Below, in pieces: positions 3,441 to 64,000 of a stretch of 64,000 nucleotides of DNA. The stretch is from Archangium violaceum. GTDB lineage: Bacteria; Myxococcota; Myxococcia; Myxococcales; Myxococcaceae. A program made the translations under genes and the position numbers. The notes beneath the pieces are model-generated. The model saw only the letters and a program-made list of their open reading frames with translations, searched no databases and was not told the origin of the DNA. The DNA lies in NCBI RefSeq assembly GCF_016887565.1, contig NZ_CP069396.1, positions 3,995,001-4,059,000 on the forward strand. Reading direction: 5' to 3'. Position 1 is the first letter of the stretch; every line of letters begins with the position of its first letter.

Positions 3441-3938
3441 ATGGAAGGGCAGCTACAGCGGCGCATTCTGGTGGTGGACGACGACCCGACCATCCTGAAT
3501 GTCTGGCGCAGGGTGCTGGGGCCCAAATGGCGCCGGCCCGCGTTGGACAACCTGGAGAAGAAGCTCTTCGGTGCCACCCCGCCCGCCGCGGCCCCTGAAG
3601 TGGCCTTCACCATCGACACCGCCTCTCAGGGGATGGAGGGCTTCCAGAAGGTCGTCAGCGCGCTGGCCGAGGGGCGTCCCTACAATTTCGCCCTCGTCGA
3701 CATGCGGATGCCGCCTGGCTGGGACGGGTTGGAGACCATCCTGCGCATGCTGGAGAAGGACCCTCAGCTGGAGGTGGCCATCTGCAGCGCCTTCTCGGAC
3801 ATCTCCCGGGATGAGGTGGTCAAGCGCGTGGGTCGGTCGGACCTGCAGTGGCTCAAGAAGCCCTTCGAGCTCGAAGTGGCCCGCGAGCTGGCCTGGAAGT
3901 TGAGTGAGCAGGGCGTCCATCGACGCCAGTCCCGCTAG
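3441..3938 (+). CDS. Single-domain response regulator with an enlarged helix-1 region
   Basis: A 165-aa protein that is essentially one receiver domain. It has the acidic triad LVVDDDP at residues ~10-16, the likely phospho-acceptor in ALVDMRMPPGWDG and the conserved lysine in LKKPFEL near the end. Between the acidic patch and strand 2 there are ~25 extra residues (WRRPALDNLEKKLFG onward) compared with CheY. There is no output domain. ATG 3441 is chosen because AAGGAGGG lies 7 nt upstream; an open frame continues far upstream without support. The phosphodonor may be an orphan hybrid kinase elsewhere. Confidence 0.85.
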   Translation: MEGQLQRRILVVDDDPTILNVWRRVLGPKWRRPALDNLEKKLFGATPPAAAPEVAFTIDTASQGMEGFQKVVSALAEGRPYNFALVDMRMPPGWDGLETILRMLEKDPQLEVAICSAFSDISRDEVVKRVGRSDLQWLKKPFELEVARELAWKLSEQGVHRRQSR

Positions 3939-3959
3939 AAGCTGATAGGGGAGGGGCGC

Positions 3960-5084
3960 ATGACGAGCCCCCTTCCGAGCTCCTCTCGCGCCGCTGCCCT
4001 CGCCGTCGTCCTCGTACTCGGGCTGCTGGCGGTGCATGCGGGCATGGCCTCTCCTGGAGGAGACCTCTCCCACCACTACACCGACCACCTGCGGCACATG
4101 GCGGAAGCGCAAGCGCTCGTGGAGCGTGGATTCTCCGTCTATCGACTGCCGTATGCCGAGTCCGCGCGCGGGCTGTACCCCTGCGCGGCGCACGAGGGGC
4201 TGTTTCCCGAGCGCACGGCACCGTATCCGCCGCTCGGGCTCCTCCTGCACTGGCCGCTGGGCGCGCTGGAGCGCTCGGGGCTCCTGGCGCCTTCGCTGGC
4301 CCACCGGGGGATGACGCTCCTGTTGCTCGCGTTGGGTCTGGCCGCCAGTGCGGCGGGACTCGTCCTCCTCCGTCCCCAGGGCCGGTGGGCGCTCGCGGGG
4401 GGCGTCCTTCTCCTGGTGCCCCTGCTCGTGGGCTCGGGGGCGAACGGCTTCTATGACGTCACCTATGTGCTCGCCGGCACCCTGGGACTGCTGGCCCTCG
4501 CCCGTGGCCGACCCCAGGCGGCGGTGGTCCTGCTGGGGGTCTGCGCTGCGCTGAGCTTCCGCGCCCTGGTGTTCGCACCCGTGGGGCTCTGGGCGCTCGT
4601 CGAAGCGTGGCGCCAGGGGCGGCGGAACACGGCCCTCTCTGGTGCCGTGGCGGCGGTGCTCGTCCTCGGCGCGGCGGCCAGCGCGGCGGCGCTCCAGGGA
4701 ACGCTCGAGACCATTCCCGCGGACAACCCCGCGCACGTCTCGCACCTGCTGCGCGGCAAGCCCGCGCCGCTGCTCTTCGTGCTCGTCTCGGCCGCCACCG
4801 CAGGCTACCTGCTCCGCACCCGTCACGTGTGGACCGCGCTGTCCGTGCTCTCGGCGGTCCTCGTCGCCCTCCTGGATCGCTCGCACGGCTACTGGCACGC
4901 GCTTCCGCTGCTGGTTCCCCCGCTGGTGCTCGCGGCCGAGGGCTCTCCCTCGGCGCCACTCCCGCCGCGCCACTGGCAGGTCGCCTGGGGCTGGGTGGTG
5001 GCCGCCACGGTGCTCGCGTTCCGTTATCCCCTGACGCCCTATTGGCAGTGGCTGGTGGACGTGGCGAGGGGCAGGGTGGTGTGA
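3960..5084 (+). CDS. Polytopic membrane protein, possibly a GT87/mannosyltransferase-like enzyme
   Basis: A 374-aa integral membrane protein with roughly nine to ten hydrophobic segments. The large loop after the first segment is hydrophilic (YTDHLRHMAEAQALVERG then YRLPYAESARG) and ends in APYPPLGLLLHWPLG, which resembles the first loop of polyprenyl-phosphate-dependent GT-C glycosyltransferases (DUF2029/GT87). No firm catalytic motif can be assigned, so the function is a suggestion from architecture. AGGGGAGGGG precedes the ATG. It stands alone, convergent with ybaK, whose stop is 9 nt away. Confidence 0.6.
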   Translation: MTSPLPSSSRAAALAVVLVLGLLAVHAGMASPGGDLSHHYTDHLRHMAEAQALVERGFSVYRLPYAESARGLYPCAAHEGLFPERTAPYPPLGLLLHWPLGALERSGLLAPSLAHRGMTLLLLALGLAASAAGLVLLRPQGRWALAGGVLLLVPLLVGSGANGFYDVTYVLAGTLGLLALARGRPQAAVVLLGVCAALSFRALVFAPVGLWALVEAWRQGRRNTALSGAVAAVLVLGAAASAAALQGTLETIPADNPAHVSHLLRGKPAPLLFVLVSAATAGYLLRTRHVWTALSVLSAVLVALLDRSHGYWHALPLLVPPLVLAAEGSPSAPLPPRHWQVAWGWVVAATVLAFRYPLTPYWQWLVDVARGRVV

Positions 5085-5093
5085 CGCCGCCGT

Positions 5094-5570
5094 CTACGTC
5101 TTGTCGCGGGAGATGGGCCCGAGCTTGCCCTTGGTGACGCGCAGGTAGTCCGCGGGGGACAGGAGGAGCTGCGTACCCCGTACGCCCGCGGAGACGGAGA
5201 CGACGTCGAACAGCTCGAGCGTCTCGTCCACGAACACGGGGTACTCCTTCTTGCCGCCAATGGCGGTGACGCCGCCGCGGATGTAGCCCGTGAGCGGCTG
5301 GAGCTCCTTGAGCGGCACCGTGTCCACCTTCCGGTCCCCGCTCAGCCGCGCCAGCGCCTTCAAATCCAGCTCGCCGTTGCCGGGCACCACGGCCATGAGC
5401 ACGCCGGTCCGGTCCCCCCGGGCCACGAGCGTCTTGAAGACCTGCTCCGGAGGCATCCCCACCTTGGCGGCCACCGTCTCGGCGGAGAGGTCCTCCGGGT
5501 CCACCTCGTACTCGCGCAGCTCGTAGTGGACGCCGAGCGAGTCCAGCAGCCGTGCCGCGTTCGTCTTCAT
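5094..5570 (-). CDS. ybaK: Cys-tRNA(Pro)/Cys-tRNA(Cys) deacylase, YbaK/EbsC family
   Basis: A 158-aa cytosolic editing enzyme of the normal length for the family, which hydrolyses mischarged aminoacyl-tRNA, chiefly Cys-tRNA(Pro). The opening [20 protein letters not shown] is typical of YbaK. The motifs [11 protein letters not shown], the conserved lysine region [14 protein letters not shown] and the [15 protein letters not shown] loop are present. It lies 4 nt upstream of purK on the same strand and may share its transcript with purE-purK, though there is no functional link. Confidence 0.9.
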
Positions 5571-5574
5571 GGAT

Positions 5575-6717
5575 TCACGCTCCCAGGGCCTGGCGGGCGG
5601 CCTTGATGCGGGCCAGCGCCTCCTCGGGCGTGGTGCCCACGGCGGACAGGTGTCCCATCTTCCGGCCCTTGCGCGCCTCGCGCTTGCCGTACAGGTGCAG
5701 GCGCACGCCCGGCATGGCCAGCACGGACTCGAACTTCGGCCCGCCCTCGCGCAGCCACAGGTCGCCCAGCAGGTTGACGATGGCCGCGTGCCGCACCACC
5801 TCCACCGAGCCCAGCGGCAGGTTGCACACCGCGCGCACCGCCTGTTCGAACTGGCTGGTGAGGCACGCCACCTCCGTGGCGTGGAAGCTGTTGTGCGGGC
5901 GCGGCGCCAGCTCGTTGACCAGCAGCCGTCCGTCCTTCAGGAGGAACATCTCCACCACCAGCAGACCCTCGACCTCGAGCGCCGTGGCCATGGCACGGGC
6001 GATCTCCGTCGCCTGGGTGGCTACCTGGGGTGACACCTGTCCTGGCAGCAGCGACCAGTCGAGGATCCGCTCCTCGTGGTGGTTGTAGGCCGGCGGGTAC
6101 ACCACGACTTCTCCCCGGGGGGAGCGCGCCACCAGCACGGACAGCTCGGCCTCCAGGTCCAGCGCGGCCTCCACCACCACGGGGCTCCGGCCCAGCTCGC
6201 GCCAGGCCTCGGGGGCCTCGGAGGCGGACTTCACCTGGTACTGGCCCCGTCCGTCATAACCCCCCTCGCAGGACTTCACGAAGCAGCGCCCGCCCAGCTC
6301 CGTCGTCGCCGTGGCCAGGGCCTCCTCCAGGTCGGCCTGCTTCCACGGCCCCTGGGGGAAGCCGTGCTTCGCGAGCCAGGCCCGCTGCCGCCCGCGGTTC
6401 TGCACCACCTCGAGCACGTGGGGGCCCGGCCGCAGGGGCGCGTGCTGGGCGGCGGCGCGCAGGGTGGCGAGGGGAATCTTCTCGATCTCCAGCGTCACCA
6501 CGTCACTGGCGCGCGCCAGCCGGCTGGCCTCTTCCATGTTGCCGAAGTCGGCCGTGTAGCACTGGTCCACCACGAAGCGGGACGAGCACGCGGGGTCGGG
6601 ATCCAACGCCTGCACCTGGTAGCCGAGCGTGCGCGCGGACAGGGCCATCATCCGGCCCAGCTGCCCACCGCCGAGGATGCCGATCGTCCCACCCGGCAGG
6701 ATGGTCTTCGTGTTCAT
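5575..6717 (-). CDS. purK: N5-carboxyaminoimidazole ribonucleotide synthase
   Basis: A 380-aa ATP-grasp enzyme of de novo purine synthesis that makes N5-CAIR from AIR, bicarbonate and ATP. The N-terminal dinucleotide-like motif [13 protein letters not shown] is clear. The ATP-grasp core has [12 protein letters not shown] and the [19 protein letters not shown] metal/ATP segment. Length and domain order are normal. The start overlaps the purE stop by 4 bp, giving the usual purE-purK operon, so the product can be passed straight to PurE. Confidence 0.96.
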
Positions 6718-7208
6718 GCGAGCTCCCGATCCCGGAGCACCTCGTCGGTGCGGGCCTGACGCCAGGCGCCGAGCCTGGGGCGCAGCTCCGGGTATTTGAG
6801 GGACAGGATGGAGGCGGCGTACAGCGCGGCGTTGATGGCCCCCGGCTTGCCGATGGCCATGGTGCCCACCGGCACGCCCTTGGGCATCTGCACGATGGAC
6901 ATCAGCGCGTCGAAGCCGTTGAGCACCGTGGCGGGGATGGGGACGCCGAGCACCGGCAGCAGGGTCTTGCTGGCCACCATGCCCGGCAGGTGGGCCGCGC
7001 CTCCCGCCGCCGCGATGATGACGGACAGCCCGCGCGACTCCGCCGTCTCCGCGTACTGCATCATCCAGTCCGGCGTGCGGTGGGCGGACACCACCCGCAC
7101 CTCGTGCGGGATGCCCAGCTCCTTCAGCACGTCGATGCCCGGGCGCAGGTGCTCCAGGTCACTCTTGCCGCCCATGATGACGCCCACCCAGGGTGTTTCC
7201 GCGCTCAA
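6714..7208 (-). CDS. purE: N5-carboxyaminoimidazole ribonucleotide mutase
   Basis: A 164-aa class I PurE, converting N5-CAIR to CAIR in purine biosynthesis. The signature [16 protein letters not shown] and the catalytic-loop segment [14 protein letters not shown] are present, as is [17 protein letters not shown]. The start is read as TTG 7208 because GGAGG sits 7 nt upstream at 7216-7220. The next in-frame ATG is inside the conserved GVIMGG motif and would remove the first strand. It is the first gene of purE-purK; a hairpin lies 20-40 nt upstream of the start. Confidence 0.95.
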
Positions 7209-7227
7209 GCTCTCGCCTCCCGTACGC

Positions 7228-7248
7228 CCTCCTGGTGAGGCCAGGAGG
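7228..7248 (-). terminator. Stem-loop in the purE leader / after the VWA gene
   Basis: Eight-bp perfect stem CCTCCTGG / CCAGGAGG with a 5-nt loop. It lies between the VWA gene stop and the purE ribosome site, both on the minus strand. It could end the VWA transcript or act in the purE leader. No riboswitch fold was recognised. Confidence 0.35.
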
Positions 7249-7277
7249 TGCGGAGAACGCGGAGATAGGGTGGGGGG

Positions 7278-7318
7278 ATTCCGCCGGTCAACCGGAAGCG
7301 TACGGGGGCGGGCGGAAT
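7278..7318 (-). terminator. Inverted repeat directly after the VWA gene stop
   Basis: The 8-bp arms ATTCCGCC (7278-7285) and GGCGGAAT (7311-7318) are perfectly complementary around a 25-nt GC-rich interior. They begin 1 nt after the VWA stop codon on the minus strand. It is probably a transcript-end structure. There is no U-run, so the call is weak. Confidence 0.35.
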
Positions 7319-7319
7319 T

Positions 7320-8720
7320 TCAGTAGGTGGAGCCGATCTTCCCGAAGCTCTTCATGGCCCGGGCCTTCGTCCGCTTCACCGCCGAGCCCACCGACTCGCT
7401 GTCGGACGCCTGCTCGTAGTCCTGGAGGACCGCCTGCTGCTCGGCCAGGTCCGCCGCCACCGCCGAGGGGCTGGCCACCGTACCCGCCTCCTGGAAGAGC
7501 GCCTGGTTCTGTATCACGTAGCCCTTGGCCTCCTCCTTGCGCCCGTCCCGCAGGGCCTCGGCCGCCAGCTTCAGGTTCTTCGCGCTCAGCGCCCGCGTCG
7601 CGTACACCGTGGCGTCCTTGTCCTGGCGCGCCAGCACCTCCTCGCGCCGCTCCGTCACCATCGCCGACAGGCTCGCCGCGCTCTCCACCCCCGCGTCCTT
7701 CAGCAGGTCCGAGTACGCCAGCTTCAGCCCCGTCACGTCCACCGTGCTCCCCGGCCGGGTGCCCTCCACCGTCAGCCGCGCCACCACGCGCTCCACCTGG
7801 CCCGAGGAGAAGTCCGGCAGCGGCACCCGCACCGTGTTTCCCGCCTGGTGCGCGCGGTAGCCCAGCACCTCGCCCAGCCTCACCCCCGCGGGCAGCTCGA
7901 AGGACAGCTCCACGCCGCGCGCCACGCTGGTGGCCGCCTGCCGCAGGTCCTTCTGGAAGAGCGTGGCCAGCTGCCCCGCGTCCTCCAGGAAGCCGTACGC
8001 CCCCGCTCCGTACTCGGCGAAGCCCTGCATCAGGTCCTCGTTGAAGTCCGTGCCCACGCCGATGGCGCTCACGGTGATGCCCTCGGCGCGGATGTCCTTC
8101 ACCACCTGGGTGAGGCCCGCGTCGTCGGTGATGCCCTCGGTGGGCTGGCCGTCGCTCAGCAGGATGATGCGGTTGACGGTGTAGCCGCCCCGGGCGGCCG
8201 CCACGTGCGTGCGGCCCGTGTGCAGCCCCGCGCCGATGTTGGTGCCGCCATCATCCCAGATGCCCTCGACGTACTGGAGCATCCGCTCCCGGTTGCCGGG
8301 CGTGGCCGGCAGGCTCGGCAGGCTCTTCACGTCCGAGCCGTAGTGCACGATGGCCAGCCGGTCCTCGGGTCCCAACTGCCCCACGAGGTGGCGCGCGGCC
8401 TGCTTCGCCTGTTGCAGCTTGTAGCCGCTCATGGAGCCCGAGCGGTCGATGACCACCGCCAGGTTCACCGGGGTGCGCTTGGAGCCCGGCACCTCCACGC
8501 CGGTGATGTCCACCGTGACGAAGAGATCCGAGGTTCCCGGGGTGATGTAGGGGTGCGACAGCCGGCTCGTCATCGTCAACGAGCCGTTGCTGGCGGTGGC
8601 CGGCCTGGGGGTCGGCACGGGGGTGGCACCGTGCGGCGGTGCCATGTGCGGCAGGCCCAGCACCAGGGCGGTGAGGGCCAGTCCGGCGGTCAGGGAGACG
8701 AAGGCGACCGTCTTGTTCAT
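7320..8720 (-). CDS. Secreted von Willebrand factor A domain protein
   Basis: A 466-aa protein with an N-terminal export or anchor segment (TVAFVSLTAGLALTALVLGL). A VIT-like region precedes a full VWA domain whose MIDAS motif is DRSGSMS, with later metal ligands in DDGGTNIGAG and LLSDGQPTEG. The C-terminal ~170 residues resemble the extension of bacterial VWA/YfbK-like proteins. It probably binds protein ligands through a divalent cation at the cell envelope. AAGGAG lies 11 nt upstream of ATG. It is 81 nt downstream of the cglC-like gene on the same strand, so co-transcription is possible. The specific role is unknown. Confidence 0.82.
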   Translation of the reverse strand: MNKTVAFVSLTAGLALTALVLGLPHMAPPHGATPVPTPRPATASNGSLTMTSRLSHPYITPGTSDLFVTVDITGVEVPGSKRTPVNLAVVIDRSGSMSGYKLQQAKQAARHLVGQLGPEDRLAIVHYGSDVKSLPSLPATPGNRERMLQYVEGIWDDGGTNIGAGLHTGRTHVAAARGGYTVNRIILLSDGQPTEGITDDAGLTQVVKDIRAEGITVSAIGVGTDFNEDLMQGFAEYGAGAYGFLEDAGQLATLFQKDLRQAATSVARGVELSFELPAGVRLGEVLGYRAHQAGNTVRVPLPDFSSGQVERVVARLTVEGTRPGSTVDVTGLKLAYSDLLKDAGVESAASLSAMVTERREEVLARQDKDATVYATRALSAKNLKLAAEALRDGRKEEAKGYVIQNQALFQEAGTVASPSAVAADLAEQQAVLQDYEQASDSESVGSAVKRTKARAMKSFGKIGSTY

Positions 8721-8801
8721 GACAGAGGGCTCCTTGCGGCGAGGGCCCCACTGTCCACGTCCGGCGCGCGAAAAAGTTCTAAGCCGCGCGCGCGAAAGGC
8801 G

Positions 8802-9308
8802 TCAGTTGCTCGCGGACTCGACGGCGCCGGCGCAGAAGTAGGGCGAGTTGTTCTCGCCGAACGTGTTGCGGTAGGCGACCGGATCGTTCACGCGCATGTC
8901 GTCCATCGCCTGCTGATCCAGCAGCAGGGCGCGGCAGACCATGCGATCCTTCACGCTCGCCTCCGCGTCCGAGGCGTTGACGGCGCAGTCATTCTGGAGG
9001 CTGTCCGTCACGCACGACTTGCTGCAGTAGCCCCGGGCCAAGCCGTCTTCCTCGGGGGGCTCCGCGTAGCTGGTGTCCCGCACGCAGATGAGATCCTCGC
9101 ACTCCGTCATGCCGAAGGAGATGAAGTCCTGGCCCGGCTTCAGCTCGGTATACTTGATGGGCCGGGTCTTGCCGAGCTCCGGATGGGCCGCCAGCTCGTC
9201 GGCGGTGGCCTTGCGCACCAGTGTGCACCGCCTCCCGATATCGGACTTGATCTCGCACCCACCACACAGCAGGGCCGCAGTCACCAGAAGAGCCAGACGC
9301 GCAGACAT
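8802..9308 (-). CDS. cglC: Cysteine-rich outer-membrane lipoprotein, candidate gliding-motility protein CglC/GltK
   Basis: A 168-aa lipoprotein with signal ARLALLVTAALLCGGC; the lipobox LCGGC places the lipidated Cys at residue 18. The mature part has eight further cysteines in pairs (EDLICV, GYCSKSCV, YFCAG), suggesting disulphides. It is divergent from two barrel genes and gltC. In Myxococcus xanthus, cglC/gltK is the neighbour of gltB-gltA-gltC and encodes an outer-membrane lipoprotein of the gliding complex, so the assignment rests mainly on context. ATG 9308 is used because it gives a compact signal peptide; a longer frame upstream runs through the promoter region. Confidence 0.6.
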   Translation of the reverse strand: MSARLALLVTAALLCGGCEIKSDIGRRCTLVRKATADELAAHPELGKTRPIKYTELKPGQDFISFGMTECEDLICVRDTSYAEPPEEDGLARGYCSKSCVTDSLQNDCAVNASDAEASVKDRMVCRALLLDQQAMDDMRVNDPVAYRNTFGENNSPYFCAGAVESASN

Positions 9309-56250: not shown

Positions 56251-57654
56251 CTACTTCGCGCGCACGAGGATGGCCCCGAAGAAACCATCCGTGCCGTGCA
56301 GGTGGGGGGCGAGCCGCAGGAAGGGGCCCGGGCCCACCTTCGCGCCCAGCTCCGGCCCGAGCTCCTCCGCCACTGGACGCACCGAGTAGTCCGGGTGCCT
56401 GGCGAGGAAGTCCTCCACCACGGCCTCGTTCTCCTCGCGCAGCACGCTGCACGTGCCGTAGATGAGCCGGCCGCCCGGCTTCACCAGCTGGGAGAAGCGC
56501 TCCAGCAGCCGCTTCTGCCGCGCCACGTGGTCCTGAATCATCTCGGGCGTGAGGCGGTAGCGCGCGTCCGGCTTGCGGCGGAAGGTTCCGGTGCCACTGC
56601 ACGGGGCATCCACCAGCACCCGGTCCGCCTTGCCCTTGAGGGCGGCGAGGGCCTCGTCCACCTCGGGGCCCTCGGCGGGGATGACCTGGGTGCGCACGTT
56701 GTGCACACCGGCCCGGCGCGCGCGCTTGCGCAGCTCGTCGATGCGGCCCTCGTCCACGTCCAGCGCGTGCAGGTCGCCCCGGTTCTTCATCTGCACGGCG
56801 AGTTGCAGCGTCTTGCCCCCCGCGCCCGCGCACGCGTCCACCACCCGCGTGGGCGGCGCGTCCACCAGCATGCCGAGCAGCTGGCTGCCCTCGTCCTGCA
56901 GCTCGAACCAGCCCTCGCGGAAGGCCTCGAGTGTGAAGGCATTGGCGCGCGTGTCGAGGATGAGCCCGAGCGGCGACAGCGGGGTGGGGGTGGCGTGCAC
57001 GCCCTCCTGCTCCAGCTGCGCGCGGAGCTTCTCGCGGTCTCCCTTGAAGCCATTGGCGCGGGCGGTGAGGGGGGCGCGCTCGTTCATCGCCTCGGCGGCG
57101 CGCTCGGCGTCGGCGCCGAAGACCTCGCGGAAGCGCTCGGCGAGGAAGTCCGGCAGCGAGGCGGCGATGGGGAAGCGCTTCTCCCTGGGGAGGGACTCCA
57201 GCTTCCGGGCGGCCTCGGGGAGGGCGGCCAGCGCGCCAGCGTCGGTGCCCGGCAGCGAGGAGGTGCGCGCCACCACGTCCACGGCCTCGCCATGGAGGAT
57301 GCGCGAGGCGGCCAGGCGCAACACGTCCTGGCGCGTCTTGTCCAGGCGGGAGAAGTCGCGGTGGGCGTGCTCGAGGAGGAAGTCCACCGTGCGCTGACGG
57401 CGGAGCAGGGCGTACACCCGCTCGGCCACGGCGCGGCGCTCGTTGGAGTAGAGGTTGCGCTTGTGACGGAGGGTGAAGTCCAGGGCCCGGTCGGCCAGAC
57501 GGCCCTCGTGGCGGACGAAGCCGTAGGCCTCGAGGCTCGCCTGGAGGACGAGGTCCTCCCTCACGGGGCGGTTGGGGCGTGGCGCCGCCTCGGAGGAGGG
57601 CGGCTCATGGCGGGGCTGGGAGGCCCGGGCGGGCGGGCGGGGGTTCTTCTTCAT
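56251..57654 (-). CDS. rsmB: RsmB/NSUN-type RNA m5C methyltransferase
   Basis: A 467-aa enzyme. An N-terminal NusB-like domain (~25-150, LQASLEAYGFVRHEGRLADR...AERVYALLRRQRT) leads to a Rossmann-fold methyltransferase with SAM motif VVDACAGAGGKTLQLA, catalytic DAPCSGTGTFRRKPDARY and the second Cys in YGTCSVLREENEAVV. It methylates a cytosine in 16S rRNA (C967 in E. coli RsmB). ATG 57654 is chosen because conserved sequence begins soon after; upstream frame is Pro/Arg-rich. It is upstream of the M61 gene (68 bp). Confidence 0.88.
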   Translation of the reverse strand: MKKNPRPPARASQPRHEPPSSEAAPRPNRPVREDLVLQASLEAYGFVRHEGRLADRALDFTLRHKRNLYSNERRAVAERVYALLRRQRTVDFLLEHAHRDFSRLDKTRQDVLRLAASRILHGEAVDVVARTSSLPGTDAGALAALPEAARKLESLPREKRFPIAASLPDFLAERFREVFGADAERAAEAMNERAPLTARANGFKGDREKLRAQLEQEGVHATPTPLSPLGLILDTRANAFTLEAFREGWFELQDEGSQLLGMLVDAPPTRVVDACAGAGGKTLQLAVQMKNRGDLHALDVDEGRIDELRKRARRAGVHNVRTQVIPAEGPEVDEALAALKGKADRVLVDAPCSGTGTFRRKPDARYRLTPEMIQDHVARQKRLLERFSQLVKPGGRLIYGTCSVLREENEAVVEDFLARHPDYSVRPVAEELGPELGAKVGPGPFLRLAPHLHGTDGFFGAILVRAK

Positions 57655-57791
57655 TCGAGACTCCGGGGGCCCGGGAGACGGGCCTGCTCGTTCGGCAGTC
57701 AGGCGAATCGCATCCCGGGCGCTCAATGACAAGGGTGGAGGCGCCCCGGAGCGTTTCCAGGGCGCCCGTGCCTTCTCCCCCGGTCTCCCGG

Positions 57792-59222
57792 CTAGCGGCG
57801 GCGGCGACGGCGCAGGGCCCCGGCGAGCAGCACCGCGCCCGCGGGGAGCAGCGCCATCACCGGGCCCGCCGAGCACCCGGCGACCTCGGGCTGTGGCTCT
57901 CCCAGGTCGCCGTCCTCGGACGAAGTGTCCGGAGTGCCAGGAGTGCTCGGCAGTCCGGTGCCGGTGCCATCGGTGGAGGAGCCCGGCTGGGGGGCAGGAG
58001 TCGGGTCGGCGGGCTGCTCGGCATCGGGAGTGCCGTCGGGCCGCTGCTCGAGGGGAGGGAGGTCCTTGGAGAGGGAGAAGCTGTCGATCACCTTGCCCGA
58101 GGGGGTGAGCATCTGGGCGGTGAGGGTGCCTTCCTCCACCTTCACGTCGAGGTAGCCGTGGTCCGCGTCATTGCGCAGCACGGTCCAGGAGGGCTTGCCG
58201 TTGTCGAAGCGGCGGAGGGACGCGCCGCCGCTGCCCACCACGAGGTAGGTGGGGCTCTGGGTGCTCGACGCGGCCACGTCATTGCCCTGCATGGGGTACA
58301 TGCGCTCGTAGTGGTGGTCGTGCCCGTTGAGGACCAGGTCCACGCCGTACTTCTCGAAGAGGGGGGAGAACTCCCGGCGCATCAGGAGCTGCGAGCCGTG
58401 TTCACCGCTGCTCCAGGGCGGGTGGTGGAAGAAGACGATCTTCCAGGGCGCGGTGCTGGCGGCCAGGTCCTGCTCCACCCACTTCTTCTGCGCGGCGAGC
58501 GAGCAGCGGTCCGAGGAGGCCAGGCCGATGGCGCAGTTGGAGTCCAGGGAGACGAAGTGGATGTGGCCCCAGTCGAAGGAGTAGTAGCGCTCGCCACCGG
58601 AGGGGCTGGTGGGCAGGTAGAGGTTGTCGAAGTAGGGCTGGGCCTGGTTGGTGACGTACTCGTGGTTGCCCGGGGTGGCGAAGAAGGGCACCTGGGAGAG
58701 CAGCGGCGCCATGGGGGCGAAGAGGTTGTTCTGGATTTCCGTCTCGGTGCCCGAGCTGTAGGCGTTGTCGCCGAGCATCACGAAGAGGTCCGGCTTGCGG
58801 CCGAGCATGGCGGTGGCCACGCTGCGCTGGTCGGCGTTGTTCATGCCGAAGTCGCCCACGGCGGTGAAGTGGACGTTGCGGGTGCCGGGGACGGGGGCGG
58901 TGGAGAAGCGCACGGGGTTGGTGCGCGCGCCGCAGGCATCCACGAGGTAGGTGTACTCGGTGCCGGGCTGCAGGCCGGCGAGGACGACGGCGTGGTTGCG
59001 GCCGGTGTCCGCCGACTGGGCGGTCTGGTCGGTGGAGCCGTTGGTGCCGTAGAGGACCGTGGGGACGCACGGGGCATCCAGGCGGAAGGCCACGGTGGCG
59101 GTCTCGGGGCCCACCCGTTGGAGGTAGGGCTGCCGGGCGAGGCCGTCGGCGCAGGCGCTGCTCGCGGTCAATGTGAGCGCCGCGGTCACTGCTCCGAGCG
59201 CGAGGGAATACAGTCGGTGCAT
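57792..59222 (-). CDS. MYXO-CTERM-anchored purple acid phosphatase-like metallophosphoesterase
   Basis: A 476-aa exported protein. Signal LALGAVTAALTLTASSAC, then a fibronectin-like PAP N-domain (LQRVGPETATVAFRLDAP). The catalytic domain has the metal motifs AVGDFGMNN, LGDNAYSSG, TPGNHEYV, FHHPPWSS and LNGHDHHYERMYP. A Pro/Thr/Glu-rich linker ends in a MYXO-CTERM signal (AGCSAGPV, hydrophobic helix, six arginines). It should hydrolyse phosphate esters at the cell surface. GGAGG lies 4 nt upstream of ATG 59222. Confidence 0.88.
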   Translation of the reverse strand: MHRLYSLALGAVTAALTLTASSACADGLARQPYLQRVGPETATVAFRLDAPCVPTVLYGTNGSTDQTAQSADTGRNHAVVLAGLQPGTEYTYLVDACGARTNPVRFSTAPVPGTRNVHFTAVGDFGMNNADQRSVATAMLGRKPDLFVMLGDNAYSSGTETEIQNNLFAPMAPLLSQVPFFATPGNHEYVTNQAQPYFDNLYLPTSPSGGERYYSFDWGHIHFVSLDSNCAIGLASSDRCSLAAQKKWVEQDLAASTAPWKIVFFHHPPWSSGEHGSQLLMRREFSPLFEKYGVDLVLNGHDHHYERMYPMQGNDVAASSTQSPTYLVVGSGGASLRRFDNGKPSWTVLRNDADHGYLDVKVEEGTLTAQMLTPSGKVIDSFSLSKDLPPLEQRPDGTPDAEQPADPTPAPQPGSSTDGTGTGLPSTPGTPDTSSEDGDLGEPQPEVAGCSAGPVMALLPAGAVLLAGALRRRRRR

Positions 59223-59376
59223 GTTGCCTCCTGCCCGAACCATTCGGACCGGAGTGCAACCGTCCACCGTGTGACATCCATCCGATTTCTTTCGCTTGCC
59301 TGTCTACCCCACGGCGAGCGAACGAGGGGCTGGCTGGGCGTCGGTCCAGGCAGCCCCATCCCAGTGCGTGACCGTC

Positions 59377-60123
59377 TCAGGGCTTCTTCACATCATGAGA
59401 GACGAGCTCCTCGAGCCGCTCGCCCGTCTCCTTCACCTTGCCGATTCCTGGCACCAGCCAGTACGTGCGCTCGTCGCCCTGCTTGTCGCCGCGCTTGCGC
59501 TTCACCTGGATGGCGTTGGTGAAGGTTCCTGCCGGCGTGGTGACGGTCTCGTTCACCGCCTCCACGCTCCAGATGTACGTCTTGTCCTGGTCCTTCACCT
59601 CGCCATCGTCGAAGTGCTTCTCCACCTCGCGGATGTCCGACGTGTAGCTCCACCCCACGGGCTGCTCCCGGGCGATCGACTTCACCGTCGCGGGGTTCCA
59701 GGTCGTCACCTTCTGGAGCGTGTTCTCCTCGCGGTCCTCCTCGCGCAGGCGCACCACCAGCCCGTTCACGTCGATGATCTGCCAGGACAGTTCCTCCTGG
59801 TGCGGTTGGATGCTGCGCACCGCGGTGGCCTTCATGGACGTCTCTGGCACCGCCTGCTCTCCCAGCACCTCCACCCGTTTCTCGAAGACGCCCTTCTTCG
59901 GGTCCGTGATGCGGTAGGTCCACGTGGAGCCCCGCGTGAGCGGCCAGAGGCTCGTGAATGGCTCCTGTGCATCGGGGTCCACCGGCTCTCCCGGCAGGTT
60001 CACCGTCCCATCCGGATTCGTCGTGGCCGGCTGCTCCTGTGATTGCCTGGGCAGGCTCCCGCCTTCTCCGCATCCCGTCCAACACGTCACCGCCACCAGT
60101 GCAGCCCACCCCCACCGCTTCAT
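59377..60123 (-). CDS. Lipoprotein, last gene of the VTC operon
   Basis: A 248-aa lipoprotein: signal WGWAALVAVTCWTGC, lipobox WTGC. The mature part has repeated strand pairs, starting at PLTRGSTWTYRITDPKKG and ending KRGDKQGDERTYWLVPGIGK, a pattern of single-domain lipoproteins also called DUF-type periplasmic proteins. No catalytic motif. GGGAGGAG precedes the ATG, which overlaps the stop of the DUF4956 gene. Its place suggests an envelope partner of the polyphosphate system. Confidence 0.72.
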   Translation of the reverse strand: MKRWGWAALVAVTCWTGCGEGGSLPRQSQEQPATTNPDGTVNLPGEPVDPDAQEPFTSLWPLTRGSTWTYRITDPKKGVFEKRVEVLGEQAVPETSMKATAVRSIQPHQEELSWQIIDVNGLVVRLREEDREENTLQKVTTWNPATVKSIAREQPVGWSYTSDIREVEKHFDDGEVKDQDKTYIWSVEAVNETVTTPAGTFTNAIQVKRKRGDKQGDERTYWLVPGIGKVKETGERLEELVSHDVKKP

Positions 60124-60827
60124 CCTCGCTCCTCCCAGCCGCCCTTCCGGGACGGCATCTCCGACCACCTCAGTCCCCGGATCGGTCCGCCCGCGGACCG
60201 GCCCAGCGCCGATGCGAGCACTCCCGGTTCCTTCTCTTCCACCTCGAGCTCCACGCGCCGCCCGTCGAAGTCCAGCGCGCAGCTGCGCACCAGCACGTTG
60301 CGCTCGCCGAGCTTCTGTCTCAGCCACGCCTCCGCGCCCGCCAGGTCATCCGCCTGCGCCGACACCAGCATCCGCTGCCTGGTGGCGGTGGACTCCTTCT
60401 TCTCGAAGAAGTCCAACACGAACAGCAGCACGCCGACGAAGACGGTGCCCACCCCGGCCAGTCCCAGGCTGCCGTGTCCGCAGGCCATGCCCAGGCCGAT
60501 CACCAGGAAGAGGATGGCGGCGTCGCGCGGGTCCTTGAGTCCGGAGCGGAAGCGCACGAAGCCGCCGAGCCCCACCAGTCCGAAGGCCTTGGCCATGCTG
60601 TTGCCGATGACGGCGGTGATGACGGCCGCGGCGGTGCACAGCAGCACCTGGGCCTGCACCATGTCCGCCCGGGGCAGGGGCTTGCCGGTGAGCAGCCGCC
60701 ACGGCCGCAGTGCGAGCACCAGGCCGATGGCCACCGCCGCCAGCAGGCGGGGCACCATCAGTCTCGCGTCGTGGAGGGAAACCCCGGACGACACATCGTT
60801 GGCGAGCGCGGAGAAGAACGAGTCCAT
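60120..60827 (-). CDS. DUF4956 membrane protein
   Basis: A 235-aa protein with four membrane segments (~28-150: LLAAVAIGLVLALRPW, VQAQVLLCTAAAVITAVIGN, AILFLVIGLGMACGHG, VGTVFVGVLLFVLDFFEKKE) and a soluble C-terminal part. The conserved LVGLGGFVRFRSGLKDPRD loop is the DUF4956 hallmark. DUF4956 proteins often sit next to VTC-domain polyphosphate polymerases, as here. They are proposed membrane partners, perhaps channels or acceptors; this is not established. Confidence 0.85.
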   Translation of the reverse strand: MDSFFSALANDVSSGVSLHDARLMVPRLLAAVAIGLVLALRPWRLLTGKPLPRADMVQAQVLLCTAAAVITAVIGNSMAKAFGLVGLGGFVRFRSGLKDPRDAAILFLVIGLGMACGHGSLGLAGVGTVFVGVLLFVLDFFEKKESTATRQRMLVSAQADDLAGAEAWLRQKLGERNVLVRSCALDFDGRRVELEVEEKEPGVLASALGRSAGGPIRGLRWSEMPSRKGGWEERG

Positions 60828-60845
60828 GGGCTGGGTGCCTTCCGC

Positions 60846-62552
60846 TCAAAGCGTGGGCCGCGGGGCGTCGTCCCCGGGCGTGAGGAGGGCCGCGCGCTCC
60901 GAGGGGAGCACGACCGCGTGCTCGGCGGCGACGATGCGGTAGGCGTTGCGCAGCACGGGCAGGCGGCCGGAGGTGAGCTCCAGGGCGCGCAGGATGAGGG
61001 CCTCGGCGCGCTCCGTCAGGGGCAACCCCTCGAGCGAGGACACCACCGTGGCGGGCCAGCGGCTCACGAAGTCCTCGCGCAGCCGCCACGCGCGGGGGTC
61101 ATCCAGCCCGTCCAGCGAGTCGAGGGCCTCCTTCGTCAGCGGGGCGCCGCGCTCGCGCAGGGCGAAGGCCTCGTCGGTGGTGAGCCCGGTCAGCGAGCGC
61201 AGCACCAGCTTCAGGGCCCTGTCCTCCAGCGACAGGCGCAGGTCGCGCGCGAAGGGCGTGTCCAGGCCCTGGATGCTGCGCAGCACCGCCAGCCTGTCCT
61301 GGGCGAGCAGGCTCTCGCGCAGGGCGTCCGCCCGGGGTGAGCCGAGGCCGATGAGGCTGCGCGCCACGTCCGCGTACAGTCCGTGCCGCACGCCCAGCTC
61401 GCGCGCCGCCCAGGCCGGCTCGTCGTCCACTCCGGCCAGGCCGCAGAGCACCTCTCCAATGCGCCCCTCACGCAGGGCGTGCTCGCGCAGCGCCCAGGCC
61501 TCGGGCGAGTCGTTGCGCTTGAGGCCGGAGAGCACCTCCGCGGGCGCGTGCACGTAGAGGCGCTCGCGCAGGGACATGGCCCGGGGCGACGGGTTGGCAC
61601 CGAGGCTCACGGCCACGTCCTGGGGCACCACCTCCGCCAGCAGCTCGCGCAAGGCCCGGGCCGGCTCGTCGTCCAGCCCCGTGAGGCTGCGCACCGTGAG
61701 TCCCGGGAAGCGCTCCACGAAGCCCAGCCGCCGCTGGTGCGCGGCGAAGCCGGGGATGCCGCCCAGCAGCCACACCGCCAGCTGGGGCTCGCGCACCTCC
61801 AGCCCGTCCAGCGCGCGGAAGAAGTGCTCCTCCACGTCGTCCACCGTCGTCGGCACCCGGACCGGCGTGGGGCTCGGGGGCGTCACCCGCTGCGCTGGCA
61901 GCTCCCGCCCCTCCAGTCTCGCCACCACCGCCTCCACCAGGCGCTGCTCCAGCACGTGCAGCGGCTGATCATTGTTCTCGATGATGAGCCAGCGGGCGGG
62001 GTCCCTCCGCGCCAGATCGAGGAAGGCCTCGCGCTGGCGCACCGTCAGGCCCGCCCCCGCCAGTCCCTTGCGGCTGTCCGAGTCCGGGGTCCGCTCGCCC
62101 TTGTTCTTCCCCAGCCGCTTGCGCAGCCGGGCCAGCTCCGGCTCCACGTCCACCAGGATGACCAGGTCCGGCCACAGTCCCTGCGAGGCCAGCTCGCACG
62201 CCGGCGCGAGCGACTCCCAGGGCAGCCCGCGCCCGCCGCCGCTGAGCGCCAGCTGCGAGTAGAGGTAGCGATCGCTGATGCACACCTCGCCACGAGCCAG
62301 GGCGGGGGCGATGACCTCCTCCAGCTGCTGCGAGTCCCGGGCGAGGTTCAGGAAGAACTCGGTGCGCGGCGACATCTCCAGCAGCTTGGAGTCGCGGGTG
62401 AGATCGCGGATGCGCCGGGCGATGGGCGAGCGCAACTCCCCACCCTCGCGAGCGTGCGCCACCCGGTAGCCGAGCCGCCGGAGCCGCGCCGCCAGGAGGT
62501 TGGACAGGGTCGTCTTGCCGCTGCCGTCAATGCCTTCGAAGTCGATGAACAC
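60846..62552 (-). CDS. Thymidylate-kinase-like P-loop protein fused to a ~27-residue repeat domain
   Basis: A 568-aa protein. Residues 1-~215 match thymidylate kinase: IDFEGIDGSGKTTLSNLLAA (P-loop), the region with PRTEFFLNLARDSQ, ISDRYLYSQLA and a lid-like RLRKRLGKNKGERTPDS. A Pro-rich linker (~220-240) leads to ~300 residues of helical repeats with period ~27 and core GLDDPxAxxLRE (GL pairs near residues 292, 318, 343, 371, 402, 429, 456, 482 and 509). Real Tmk is ~210 aa and has no such tail. It lies between the VTC and DUF4956 genes with 6- and 18-nt spacers. The substrate may not be dTMP. Confidence 0.78.
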   Translation of the reverse strand: MFIDFEGIDGSGKTTLSNLLAARLRRLGYRVAHAREGGELRSPIARRIRDLTRDSKLLEMSPRTEFFLNLARDSQQLEEVIAPALARGEVCISDRYLYSQLALSGGGRGLPWESLAPACELASQGLWPDLVILVDVEPELARLRKRLGKNKGERTPDSDSRKGLAGAGLTVRQREAFLDLARRDPARWLIIENNDQPLHVLEQRLVEAVVARLEGRELPAQRVTPPSPTPVRVPTTVDDVEEHFFRALDGLEVREPQLAVWLLGGIPGFAAHQRRLGFVERFPGLTVRSLTGLDDEPARALRELLAEVVPQDVAVSLGANPSPRAMSLRERLYVHAPAEVLSGLKRNDSPEAWALREHALREGRIGEVLCGLAGVDDEPAWAARELGVRHGLYADVARSLIGLGSPRADALRESLLAQDRLAVLRSIQGLDTPFARDLRLSLEDRALKLVLRSLTGLTTDEAFALRERGAPLTKEALDSLDGLDDPRAWRLREDFVSRWPATVVSSLEGLPLTERAEALILRALELTSGRLPVLRNAYRIVAAEHAVVLPSERAALLTPGDDAPRPTL

Positions 62553-62558
62553 GGTTGC

Positions 62559-63272
62559 TCAGCCCCCCAGAATCCCGTCCGCGACGAAGTCGTGGACCCT
62601 CGCCATTCCCTCTGCGAACTTGCTGTACGACGGCTTGCGCCCGGGGTGGAGGGCCGCGAGCCACTCGGGCAGCTCCTCCCCCAGGTGCTTCACTTCCACC
62701 ACCACGCGCCCGTCCAGGGCGAGTGGCTCGCCCAGCCGCTCCGCGCTCAGCGTCCTCTCGCCGAACGCCAACTGCGGCGTCACCCGGTGGAAGCCGATGT
62801 CCCGGTCCACCGTCACCCGCCACGCCTGCGAGCACTGGTACACGTGCCTCCGGTACGTCACCGCCAGCGCCGGGACGAGGTTGCCCCCCGCGATGAGCGG
62901 CAGCAGCCGCACGCCTCCCTGGAGCACGCTGCCCAGCTGCGCGCGAGGCACCCAGACGCGGCGCTTCTGGGTGACGCCGTTGCGCTCGCGCTTCACCTCC
63001 AGCACCACGCGCTCCACGCCGCAGGCCCCCACGTCCGGCGAGTACTCCTTGGTGCGCACCTTGAGGCAGTCATTCGGGGTGCTCAGGGCGCGCGCGGCCA
63101 GCGGGTAGCCCGGCTTGTCGAAGTAGACGGAGGTGATGCGCGTGGGGGGAGGCAGGTAGTCGCCCAGCGAGGCGGAGAGCCTCGCGCACAGGGCCACCGC
63201 CGTCTCCCTCTCGAGCACCAGCTTGAACTCCCGGCGCAACCGGGTGACTTCTCCTTCCGCGAACTGGAGCAT
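62559..63272 (-). CDS. VTC-domain polyphosphate polymerase
   Basis: A 237-aa protein with a VTC/CYTH-like triphosphate tunnel fold. Key stretches are RREFKLVLERETAVALCARL (N-terminal basic strand), RITSVYFDKPGY, CLKVRTKEYSP, VVLEVKRERNGVTQKRRVWV (catalytic basic residues) and VVVEVKHLGE with the metal-binding Glu. VTC4-type enzymes polymerise ATP gamma-phosphate into polyphosphate and translocate it across a membrane. There is no membrane segment here, so it would rely on the DUF4956 protein. Stop is 6 nt before the kinase-like gene. Confidence 0.88.
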   Translation of the reverse strand: MLQFAEGEVTRLRREFKLVLERETAVALCARLSASLGDYLPPPTRITSVYFDKPGYPLAARALSTPNDCLKVRTKEYSPDVGACGVERVVLEVKRERNGVTQKRRVWVPRAQLGSVLQGGVRLLPLIAGGNLVPALAVTYRRHVYQCSQAWRVTVDRDIGFHRVTPQLAFGERTLSAERLGEPLALDGRVVVEVKHLGEELPEWLAALHPGRKPSYSKFAEGMARVHDFVADGILGG

Positions 63273-63290
63273 GGTCGTTCGTCTCCGTTC

Positions 63291-64000
63291 CTAGAAGCGG
63301 GTGGCGAGCTGCAGCGAGTACTCGAAGCCTGGCGCCTCGTCCCCGGGACGCAGCGCGCGCTCGGCCTGGAGCTGCGCCTTGAAGTGCTCCGAGTACAGGA
63401 CGTTGAGGCCACCGACGAAGCCATGGCCGCGGGCCTTCAGCGGGCCCTGGAGCTGAAGCGACTCGGCGCCGACCACCGGCTGCACCGCCCATCCGTCCAG
63501 GCCCACCGGCAGCGTGTAGCTGGCCAGCCCGAGCTGCGCGCTGAAGGGCCCCACGGCGAGCCGCCCGTTGACGTACTCGCCCGACACCTCCAGCCCGCCC
63601 AGGTGCAGCGTCGCGTCCGCGGCCACCGCGTGGTTGCGGGTGCCCTGGAAGACCTGCGTGAGGTAGGTGCTGGCTCCCACGGAGAGGAACTTCACGGGAC
63701 GCACGCTCACCCGGAGCGCGGCGTCCTCGCTGGCGCGCACGCCCGTGTCCTCGTCCTTGGCGCCCTGGAAGACGCCGCCGGACACCTTCAGCTTCCAGAG
63801 GTGCTTGAGGCTCACCTCTCCCATGAGCCCCAGCCGCCGGCCGCCGATGTCGTTCTCGTCCTCCAGGTAGTCCGCCACCAGTCCGCGCCGCATCAACGGG
63901 AGCTGCCAGGAGGACTCGAGCTCGCGCGCGAGGAAGGGGGCCTTGAACTGGCCGCCGTAGAGCCGCAGCCGCTTCTTCCCGTCGGAGACGCGCAGGAAGG
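63291..64000 (-). CDS. OprO/OprP-like outer-membrane porin, C-terminal part (5' end beyond window)
   Basis: The frame is open to the window edge, so the N-terminus is missing; about 236 residues are visible. The segment LYGGQFKAPFLARELESSW followed by LMRRGLVADYLED matches the phosphate-selective porin O/P family pattern. The rest alternates strands (LGLMGEVSLKHLWKLKVSGG, ADATLHLGGLEVSGEYVNG) and ends with a terminal Phe (EYSLQLATRF), the outer-membrane barrel insertion signal. Position as first gene of the VTC operon suggests transport of phosphate or polyphosphate. OprO/P assignment is moderate. Confidence 0.62.
   Translation of the reverse strand, partial: FLRVSDGKKRLRLYGGQFKAPFLARELESSWQLPLMRRGLVADYLEDENDIGGRRLGLMGEVSLKHLWKLKVSGGVFQGAKDEDTGVRASEDAALRVSVRPVKFLSVGASTYLTQVFQGTRNHAVAADATLHLGGLEVSGEYVNGRLAVGPFSAQLGLASYTLPVGLDGWAVQPVVGAESLQLQGPLKARGHGFVGGLNVLYSEHFKAQLQAERALRPGDEAPGFEYSLQLATRF

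Follow-up and report, generated by a model that had tools for sequence, protein, structure and literature searches.

The window analysed here is a stretch of 64,000 nucleotides (nt), positions 3,995,001-4,059,000 of the Archangium violaceum genome (NZ_CP069396.1, one contig of 13.2 Mb), and it ends in a five-gene cassette (cassette A) for an OprP/OprO-like porin, a VTC triphosphate-tunnel enzyme, a thymidylate-kinase-fold protein with a long repeat tail (TMK-repeat), a DUF4956 membrane protein and a putative lipoprotein. On sequence grounds, we tentatively read this cassette as a system that would make polyphosphate and, in step with its synthesis, move it through the inner membrane to serve at the cell surface; we favour this possibility without holding it to be established. 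The original prediction, made from the window's letters, of five same-strand genes with gaps of 18, 6, 18 and -4 nt was confirmed by the coordinates. All genes lie on the minus strand: the 3' part of the porin gene at 63291..64000 (stop at 63291), the VTC gene (237 aa) at 62559..63272, the TMK-repeat gene (568 aa) at 60846..62552, the DUF4956 gene at 60120..60827, and the lipoprotein gene at 59377..60123. Pfam matches above cut-off were obtained for VTC (PF09359, 1.2e-17), Thymidylate_kin (PF02223, 3.2e-27) and DUF4956 (PF16316, 8.1e-12).

The same genome carries a paralogous cassette B (L004, 5672-12235; G000:C1, approximately 1,991,671-1,998,234) with the order CotH, VTC, porin, TMK-repeat, DUF4956 and DUF47/PhoU_div, i.e. 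with VTC preceding the porin. Profiles for VTC, DUF4956, the repeat tail and the porin each gave exactly two matches in the genome, one per cassette. Across genomes, 97 TMK-repeat copies were counted in 75 genomes (summed counts of the tail profile); copies laid out like the window cassette, without CotH, are termed type A, and the CotH-containing form is termed type B. The neighbourhoods of 82 copies were read (60 of 75 type A and all 22 type B), and porin, VTC, TMK-repeat and DUF4956 genes were found together on one strand in 78 of these loci (58 type A, 20 type B). Hence, the search for the same gene order in other myxobacteria, proposed with the original prediction, recovered a conserved four-gene core, and a chance gene neighbourhood is ruled out by this conservation and by the exactly twofold occurrence of four families. 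The four exceptions are L060, L071, L094 and L095, the last of which lies at a contig edge. The TMK-repeat protein is encoded in 75 of 145 searched genomes of the order (72 of 115 high-quality genomes; 15 of 46 genera); in the set of 195 genomes of the phylum that was searched with the VTC, DUF4956 and tail profiles, the tail profile matched in 75 and in none outside the window's order. VTC was detected by Pfam in 70 of the 75 TMK-repeat genomes and by tblastn in G107, G013 and G014; G059 has its locus at a contig edge, and G139 has no VTC.

The VTC protein consists of the tunnel domain only and matches PF09359 with 64.7 bits (cut-off 23). When its profile was compared with the Protein Data Bank (PDB), chains of Vtc4 ranked best (1.3e-13), ahead of Vtc2 and Vtc3. 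In an alignment of 20 sequences, the residues R73, K94, K103, R105, R142, R152, E193, K195 and K218 are invariant in all 20, and these correspond, in this order, to Vtc4 R264, K281, K294, R296, R361, R373, E426, K428 and K458; the basic tunnel residues on which the original prediction depended are thus present. Lys458 is named as the catalytic residue of Vtc4 in the available text of PMC4641920, which also describes, for AtTTM3, four glutamates in place of four basic Vtc4p residues, and one of the four acidic-patch positions of TTM hydrolases, AtTTM3 Glu-4, as absent from Vtc4p. In this acidic-patch comparison, K195 and K103/R105 of the window protein are basic as in Vtc4, and E15 seems to take the place of Glu-4.

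The porin gene was completed from the genome DNA, as had been proposed, and extends to about 64364 in window-equivalent numbering; it encodes 357 aa from an ATG that precedes a signal-peptide-like stretch, or 394 aa from a GTG start. Its predicted model has 16 long strands (pLDDT 79.9 overall, and 80-98 in blocks of ten residues from position 101 onwards), and the best structural matches were OprP (2o4v, Z 29.0, 298 residues aligned, 4.0 A) and OprO (4rjw, Z 28.9), about four Z units ahead of the next-best porin (Z 24.9). The porin is therefore, by its model, a 16-strand outer-membrane barrel that is structurally nearest to OprP/OprO. The predicted OprO/OprP likeness stands in respect of fold; in the Pfam search the window copy remained below the cut-off for Porin_O_P (PF07396, 0.017, 14.8 bits; cut-off 20.9), whereas the porin of cassette B exceeds it (7.5e-8, 32.4 bits). 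Porin_O_P matched 13 of 22 members of the porin family at E<=0.01 (best, 1.6e-10), and a PDB sequence search with the porin gave no meaningful match. The cassette porin differs from OprP/OprO of Pseudomonas in that it is only 16% identical and is genetically tied to VTC.

The TMK-repeat protein, announced by the original prediction as a thymidylate-kinase-like protein with a large repeat tail, was corroborated by Pfam, by its model (pLDDT 89.7) and by a 27-residue periodicity. Its kinase domain (residues 1-215; 61908..62552, minus strand) aligns with a Pseudomonas TMK with a Z of 25.8, in a list of structural matches that spans residues 1-216 of the model, and has an intact P-loop (GIDGSGKTT) and DR motif and an altered lid (SRKGLxGxGL). 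The P-loop pattern is present in 81 of 82 TMK-repeat copies. The pattern used for the dTMP-kinase signature PS01331, with the genome's other Tmk (L125) as single positive control, is present in that Tmk and in 0 of 82 TMK-repeat copies (also 0 of 75 after seven distant copies were dropped by score). A plain dTMP kinase is thus not favoured, given the missing signature and a separate Tmk elsewhere in the genome, yet the kinase domain scores above the NCBIfam cut-off for dTMP kinase. The tail (residues 240-540; 60933..61835, minus strand) comprises about nine two-helix units of 27 residues, for which sequence autocorrelation peaks at 27 (0.228, against a mean of 0.096), and helix spacing in the model backs alpha-alpha repeats; a PDB sequence search with the tail gave no match. 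Compared with Tmk, the TMK-repeat protein shares fold, P-loop and DR motif, and differs in the absent signature, the altered lid and the repeat tail. The TMK-repeat proteins appear to be a TMK-derived kinase family that is confined to one order among the genomes searched, and new within those searches.

The DUF4956 protein matches PF16316 with 45.6 bits (cut-off 30.6) and has four predicted transmembrane (TM) segments (hydropathy peaks at residues 22-40, 56-74, 103-121 and 123-141) followed by a soluble C-terminal domain. No meaningful match was obtained in a PDB sequence search, and a search for plasmid copies of the window's DUF4956 gave no match. Within the phylum set, VTC was matched in 94 of 195 genomes and DUF4956 in 110; none of the 94 lacks DUF4956 at E<=0.001, with G012 and G050 scoring below the Pfam cut-off for that family. 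Of 14 named control genomes, three match VTC, and it is these three that match DUF4956. For a wider view, an alignment scan of named genomes yielded 403 relatives of DUF4956, and the top 80 of these were retained; their groups were assigned from record titles, many are metagenome-assembled genomes, and the list is biased towards relatives of layout II (see below) because the query came from that layout. The 80 loci come from many phyla, and 78 of them contain VTC. A CotH or giant CotH gene is present in 66 (26 of 29 diderm-type loci, 28 of 28 in Actinobacteria, 10 of 18 in Chloroflexi and 2 of 5 others), and PPDK in six; the porin family accompanies VTC-DUF4956 in 20 of the 29 diderm-type loci and in none of the other 51. 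Monoderms are not expected to have the porin, and its absence there says little; the informative figure is the one for diderm-type loci.

Three envelope layouts were distinguished in the phylum. Layout I, which is that of the window's taxonomic order, combines porin, VTC, TMK-repeat and DUF4956; CotH may be present or absent. Layout II (L173, L175, L179, L180 and L182, in other Myxococcota) comprises the same porin family, a giant CotH, VTC, DUF4956 and a small membrane-anchored protein; CotH itself is present in addition in L173 and L179, and L175 and L180 encode a protein homologous to the DUF3108-like lipoprotein of cassette A. The giant CotH-domain proteins between porin and VTC have 936 and 949 aa in L173 (2621-5431) and L180 (2605-5454). 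In layout III, VTC and DUF4956 are accompanied by genes for an HlyD-type protein and a TolC-type outer-membrane efflux protein (OEP), as detected by Pfam in L188 and L190 and by tblastn in L189 and L185 (G187); L188, L190 and L189 belong to the window's family. L188 (G052; 3550-9250) encodes, by Pfam, a PPDK_N-domain lipoprotein directly upstream of VTC; homologues occur in L190, again upstream of VTC, and in L189, there on the opposite strand, and L185 contains CotH. Among the 20 loci of the phylum without TMK-repeat that were read, nine have an outer-membrane conduit nearby (five porin, four HlyD-OEP); the other 11, several of which are cut short by a contig edge, have none.

The grounds for reading the cassette as polyphosphate synthesis with transfer across the inner membrane are the co-occurrence of the genes, the Vtc4-type residues, the four-TM partner, the two unrelated outer-membrane conduits, and the secreted kinase-like partners. 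Sequence and models show the parts, their conservation and co-occurrence, the VTC tunnel residues and the porin fold. What is made, which way it moves, how synthesis is tied to transfer, what the kinase acts on and what the polymer serves for we infer as follows. The cytosolic VTC enzyme would polymerise phosphate from ATP, and the growing chain would be handed to the four-TM DUF4956 protein and across the inner membrane, as in the VTC complex of yeast, which couples polymer synthesis by Vtc4 to translocation. The likeness to the yeast complex lies in the tunnel-enzyme family, in the catalytic residues and in having a membrane partner; the difference is that the bacterial VTC has no Pfam domain other than the tunnel domain, and that its partner is DUF4956. 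The polyanion might then be used in the periplasm or at the surface, most likely by extracytoplasmic kinase-like proteins, as their phosphoryl donor or as a ligand; candidates are CotH in cassette B and, in relatives, CotH, giant CotH or lipoproteins with PPDK_N. The polymer may cross, or be metered by, the OprP/OprO-like porin, with the lipoprotein as a putative accessory in the outer membrane or periplasm. The TMK-repeat protein would be a myxobacterial addition, i.e. an ATP-binding kinase for a non-dTMP acceptor (a primer or a recycling step), possibly docked to VTC/DUF4956 through its repeat tail. An outward direction is suggested mainly by the HlyD-OEP genes of relatives. Since the genome already encodes the ordinary polyphosphate enzymes, two PPK1 (G000:C1 5735454 and 2055345) and one PPK2 (2484902), VTC should have a special role, and mere storage is less likely. 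The original prediction of a chain from the cytosol through the inner membrane to the outer membrane is supported as a conserved unit, for the outer membrane by fold. It was to fall if the porin lacked OprO/OprP similarity, if the gene order were not kept, or if the tunnel lacked its basic residues, and none of these three was clearly found.

Several observations weigh against this proposal. E15 of the VTC protein appears to keep the position of AtTTM3 Glu-4 (by our own mapping, in an N-terminal strand outside the PDB alignment), and polymerase activity is therefore not certain. The kinase domain of TMK-repeat reaches 103 bits for TIGR00041 (cut-off 83.25), and TMK-repeat is present in 0 of the 80 VTC-DUF4956 loci of other groups, which shows that the module in general does not depend on it; it can also exist alone, as the gene in L094 (G139; 5998-7662) is an orphan, neither VTC nor DUF4956 being matched anywhere in that genome. 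The type B locus L060 has no detected adjoining VTC or CotH, and the type B locus L071 no detected adjoining VTC or porin; these two genomes carry another VTC on a further contig (G108:C49 and G083:C8, respectively). CotH was not detected at cassette A, nor in 14 of the 80 wider loci, and the porin was not seen in 9 of 29 diderm-type loci, several of them short or near a contig edge. The sub-threshold Porin_O_P score of the window porin belongs here too, as does the fact that OprP-like porins are known for import. No biochemistry was found for any cassette protein. For Streptococcus intermedius, the available text of PMC12345266 describes no change for the polymerase mutant SIR_1593, while Pel was altered on loss of the DUF4956-like gene and of CotH; a polysaccharide role would fit this too.

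Such a polysaccharide role is part of a rather unlikely alternative, in which VTC-DUF4956 and CotH-type kinases would regulate or decorate an exopolysaccharide or a surface protein layer, with no bulk export of polyphosphate. Some of its grounds come from Gram-positive bacteria: genes for CotH, a polyphosphate polymerase, DUF4956 and DUF4832 are contiguous with pel genes in the part of PMC7112168 available, and deletions in S. intermedius of SIR_1592 and of the CotH gene SIR_1594 changed Pel levels and aggregation according to the available text of PMC12345266, where SIR_1592 is given four TM segments and an ACT domain; we take it to be a DUF4956 protein. The giant CotH protein of L173 has an additional weak beta-helix match, which is counted in favour of this view too. 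Against this, of 10 genes scanned next to cassette A or next to the L094 gene, none matched a polysaccharide family (one of them was without any match; the flanks of cassette B and the 80 wider loci were not scanned for pel or other polysaccharide genes), cassette A is without CotH, and the porin partner is left unexplained. The Gram-positive pel loci resemble the present cassettes in having VTC and DUF4956 together, and cassette B also in its CotH; the OprP/OprO-like porin, the TMK-repeat kinase and the lipoprotein are additions on the myxobacterial side.

Phosphate scavenging, which we consider unlikely, would reverse the flow: the porin would admit phosphate, pyrophosphate or polyphosphate, phosphatases of the surface and the periplasm would free phosphate, and VTC would store it as polyphosphate at or near the inner membrane. 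The OprP/OprO fold of the porin suits this, as do a metallophosphoesterase gene adjoining cassette A (with a same-strand relative in 43 of 82 loci) and the DUF47/PhoU_div gene that follows cassette B, a gene seen at five of the 22 type B loci. It is opposed by the HlyD and TolC-type genes of relatives, which point outward, by the PPK1 and PPK2 genes, by the use of ATP by Vtc-type enzymes, and by the finding, with Pfam, of no phosphate-transporter family among the scanned genes of cassettes A and B. Moreover, no Pho box was found in 16 kb around cassette A (by the pattern used, with up to three mismatches allowed; cassette B was not scanned), and Pho-regulon control of cassette A was rejected on this result. 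Of the functions originally proposed, namely phosphate uptake, polymerisation, or export of polyphosphate, uptake is thus the weaker branch, on account of the missing Pho box, the PPK enzymes, and the HlyD and TolC-type export pair in sister operons; polymerisation and export are retained as the putative activity and direction. We regard as improbable a further view, that the VTC-like protein is a triphosphate hydrolase or nucleotide sensor in an envelope regulatory relay. E15 at one acidic-patch position, a weak similarity of DUF4956 to MgtC (below cut-off) and the presence of a TMK-fold kinase are consistent with it, against which stand the Vtc4-type K103, R105 and K195 and the catalytic K218, invariant in all 20 aligned sequences, and Vtc4 as the best PDB match.

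VTC-DUF4956-CotH is an already known neighbourhood without a settled function. The available text of PMC2879425 lists VTC, 'tubulin/FtsZ' and CotH neighbours in NELoc-2 of Clostridium perfringens, where the 'tubulin/FtsZ' proteins of 222-226 aa are, from size and place, probably DUF4956; DUF4956 also appears in expression lists in the accessible portions of PMC6848847 and PMC10434189. Three-gene synteny outside the Pel locus was not found in PMC12345266, as far as its available text goes, whereas VTC, DUF4956 and CotH occur together in many of the genomes analysed here (pel genes around those loci were not searched). An association of porin or TMK-repeat with VTC was not found among the titles and abstract starts listed by searches of open-licence PMC literature, which is weak evidence, and trans-envelope VTC-DUF4956 cassettes, with a porin or with HlyD and TolC-type genes, appear to be new within the searches made.

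Clusters of VTC and DUF4956 are found in bacteria and archaea of many phyla, mostly together with CotH, and no assigned function could be found for them; the porin cassette with its sister HlyD-TolC version turns exported polyphosphate into a testable idea. If polyphosphate synthesis is indeed coupled to transfer towards the surface, this would suggest an unrecognised route of high-energy phosphate to the cell surface; how extracytoplasmic kinases obtain a phosphoryl donor is an open question. A bolder generalisation, which we hold to be doubtful, is that VTC-DUF4956 could be a widespread prokaryotic polyphosphate synthase-translocase that exports the phosphoryl donor for ATP-less extracytoplasmic kinases (CotH, PPDK_N lipoproteins), with lineage-specific outer-membrane conduits in diderms (OprP/OprO-like porin or HlyD-TolC) and with TMK-repeat kinases recruited in myxobacteria. 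The TMK-derived kinase family is defined by the present searches, and its substrate is directly assayable.

The window lipoprotein has a signal-like N-terminus with a cysteine and is weakly DUF3108-like (PF21347, 0.022, below cut-off), and its homologue in L180 is above cut-off (2.1e-6); the lipobox pattern is present in 36 of 54 homologues, but is missing from the window copy. Upstream of the porin, nothing of note was found in a search for repeats. A sixth gene lies directly upstream of the porin on the porin's strand, just past the window end (L003, 9544-10308), and its product (254 aa, from genome DNA), apparently membrane-anchored, has a signal-like N-terminus and one hydrophobic stretch followed by a Pro-rich tail; in 47 of the 82 neighbourhoods a homologue was found, invariably sharing the porin's strand and lying no more than 1.2 kb upstream of it. 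Neither this gene nor cassette B with its CotH was visible to the original prediction, which had the window alone.

On the other side of cassette A, a gene for a purple-acid-phosphatase-like metallophosphoesterase (57792..59267, minus strand; PF00149, 3.5e-21) is a non-core neighbour. It carries a MYXO-CTERM sorting domain (TIGR03382, above cut-off), from which the protein is predicted to be probably surface-anchored. The distance of 155 bp to the lipoprotein gene given with the original prediction agrees with the 154 nt counted from a downstream ATG (109 nt with a GTG start); as a supplier of phosphate to the cassette it is no fixed member, since the same-strand gene is present in 43 of 82 loci, the window included, all of type A. 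An RsmB/F-type gene is located just beyond the metallophosphoesterase in the window (56251-57876), and the orphan TMK-repeat gene of L094, whose lid motif is altered, is flanked by a SIR2 gene on one side and an RsmB/F-type methyltransferase gene on the other.

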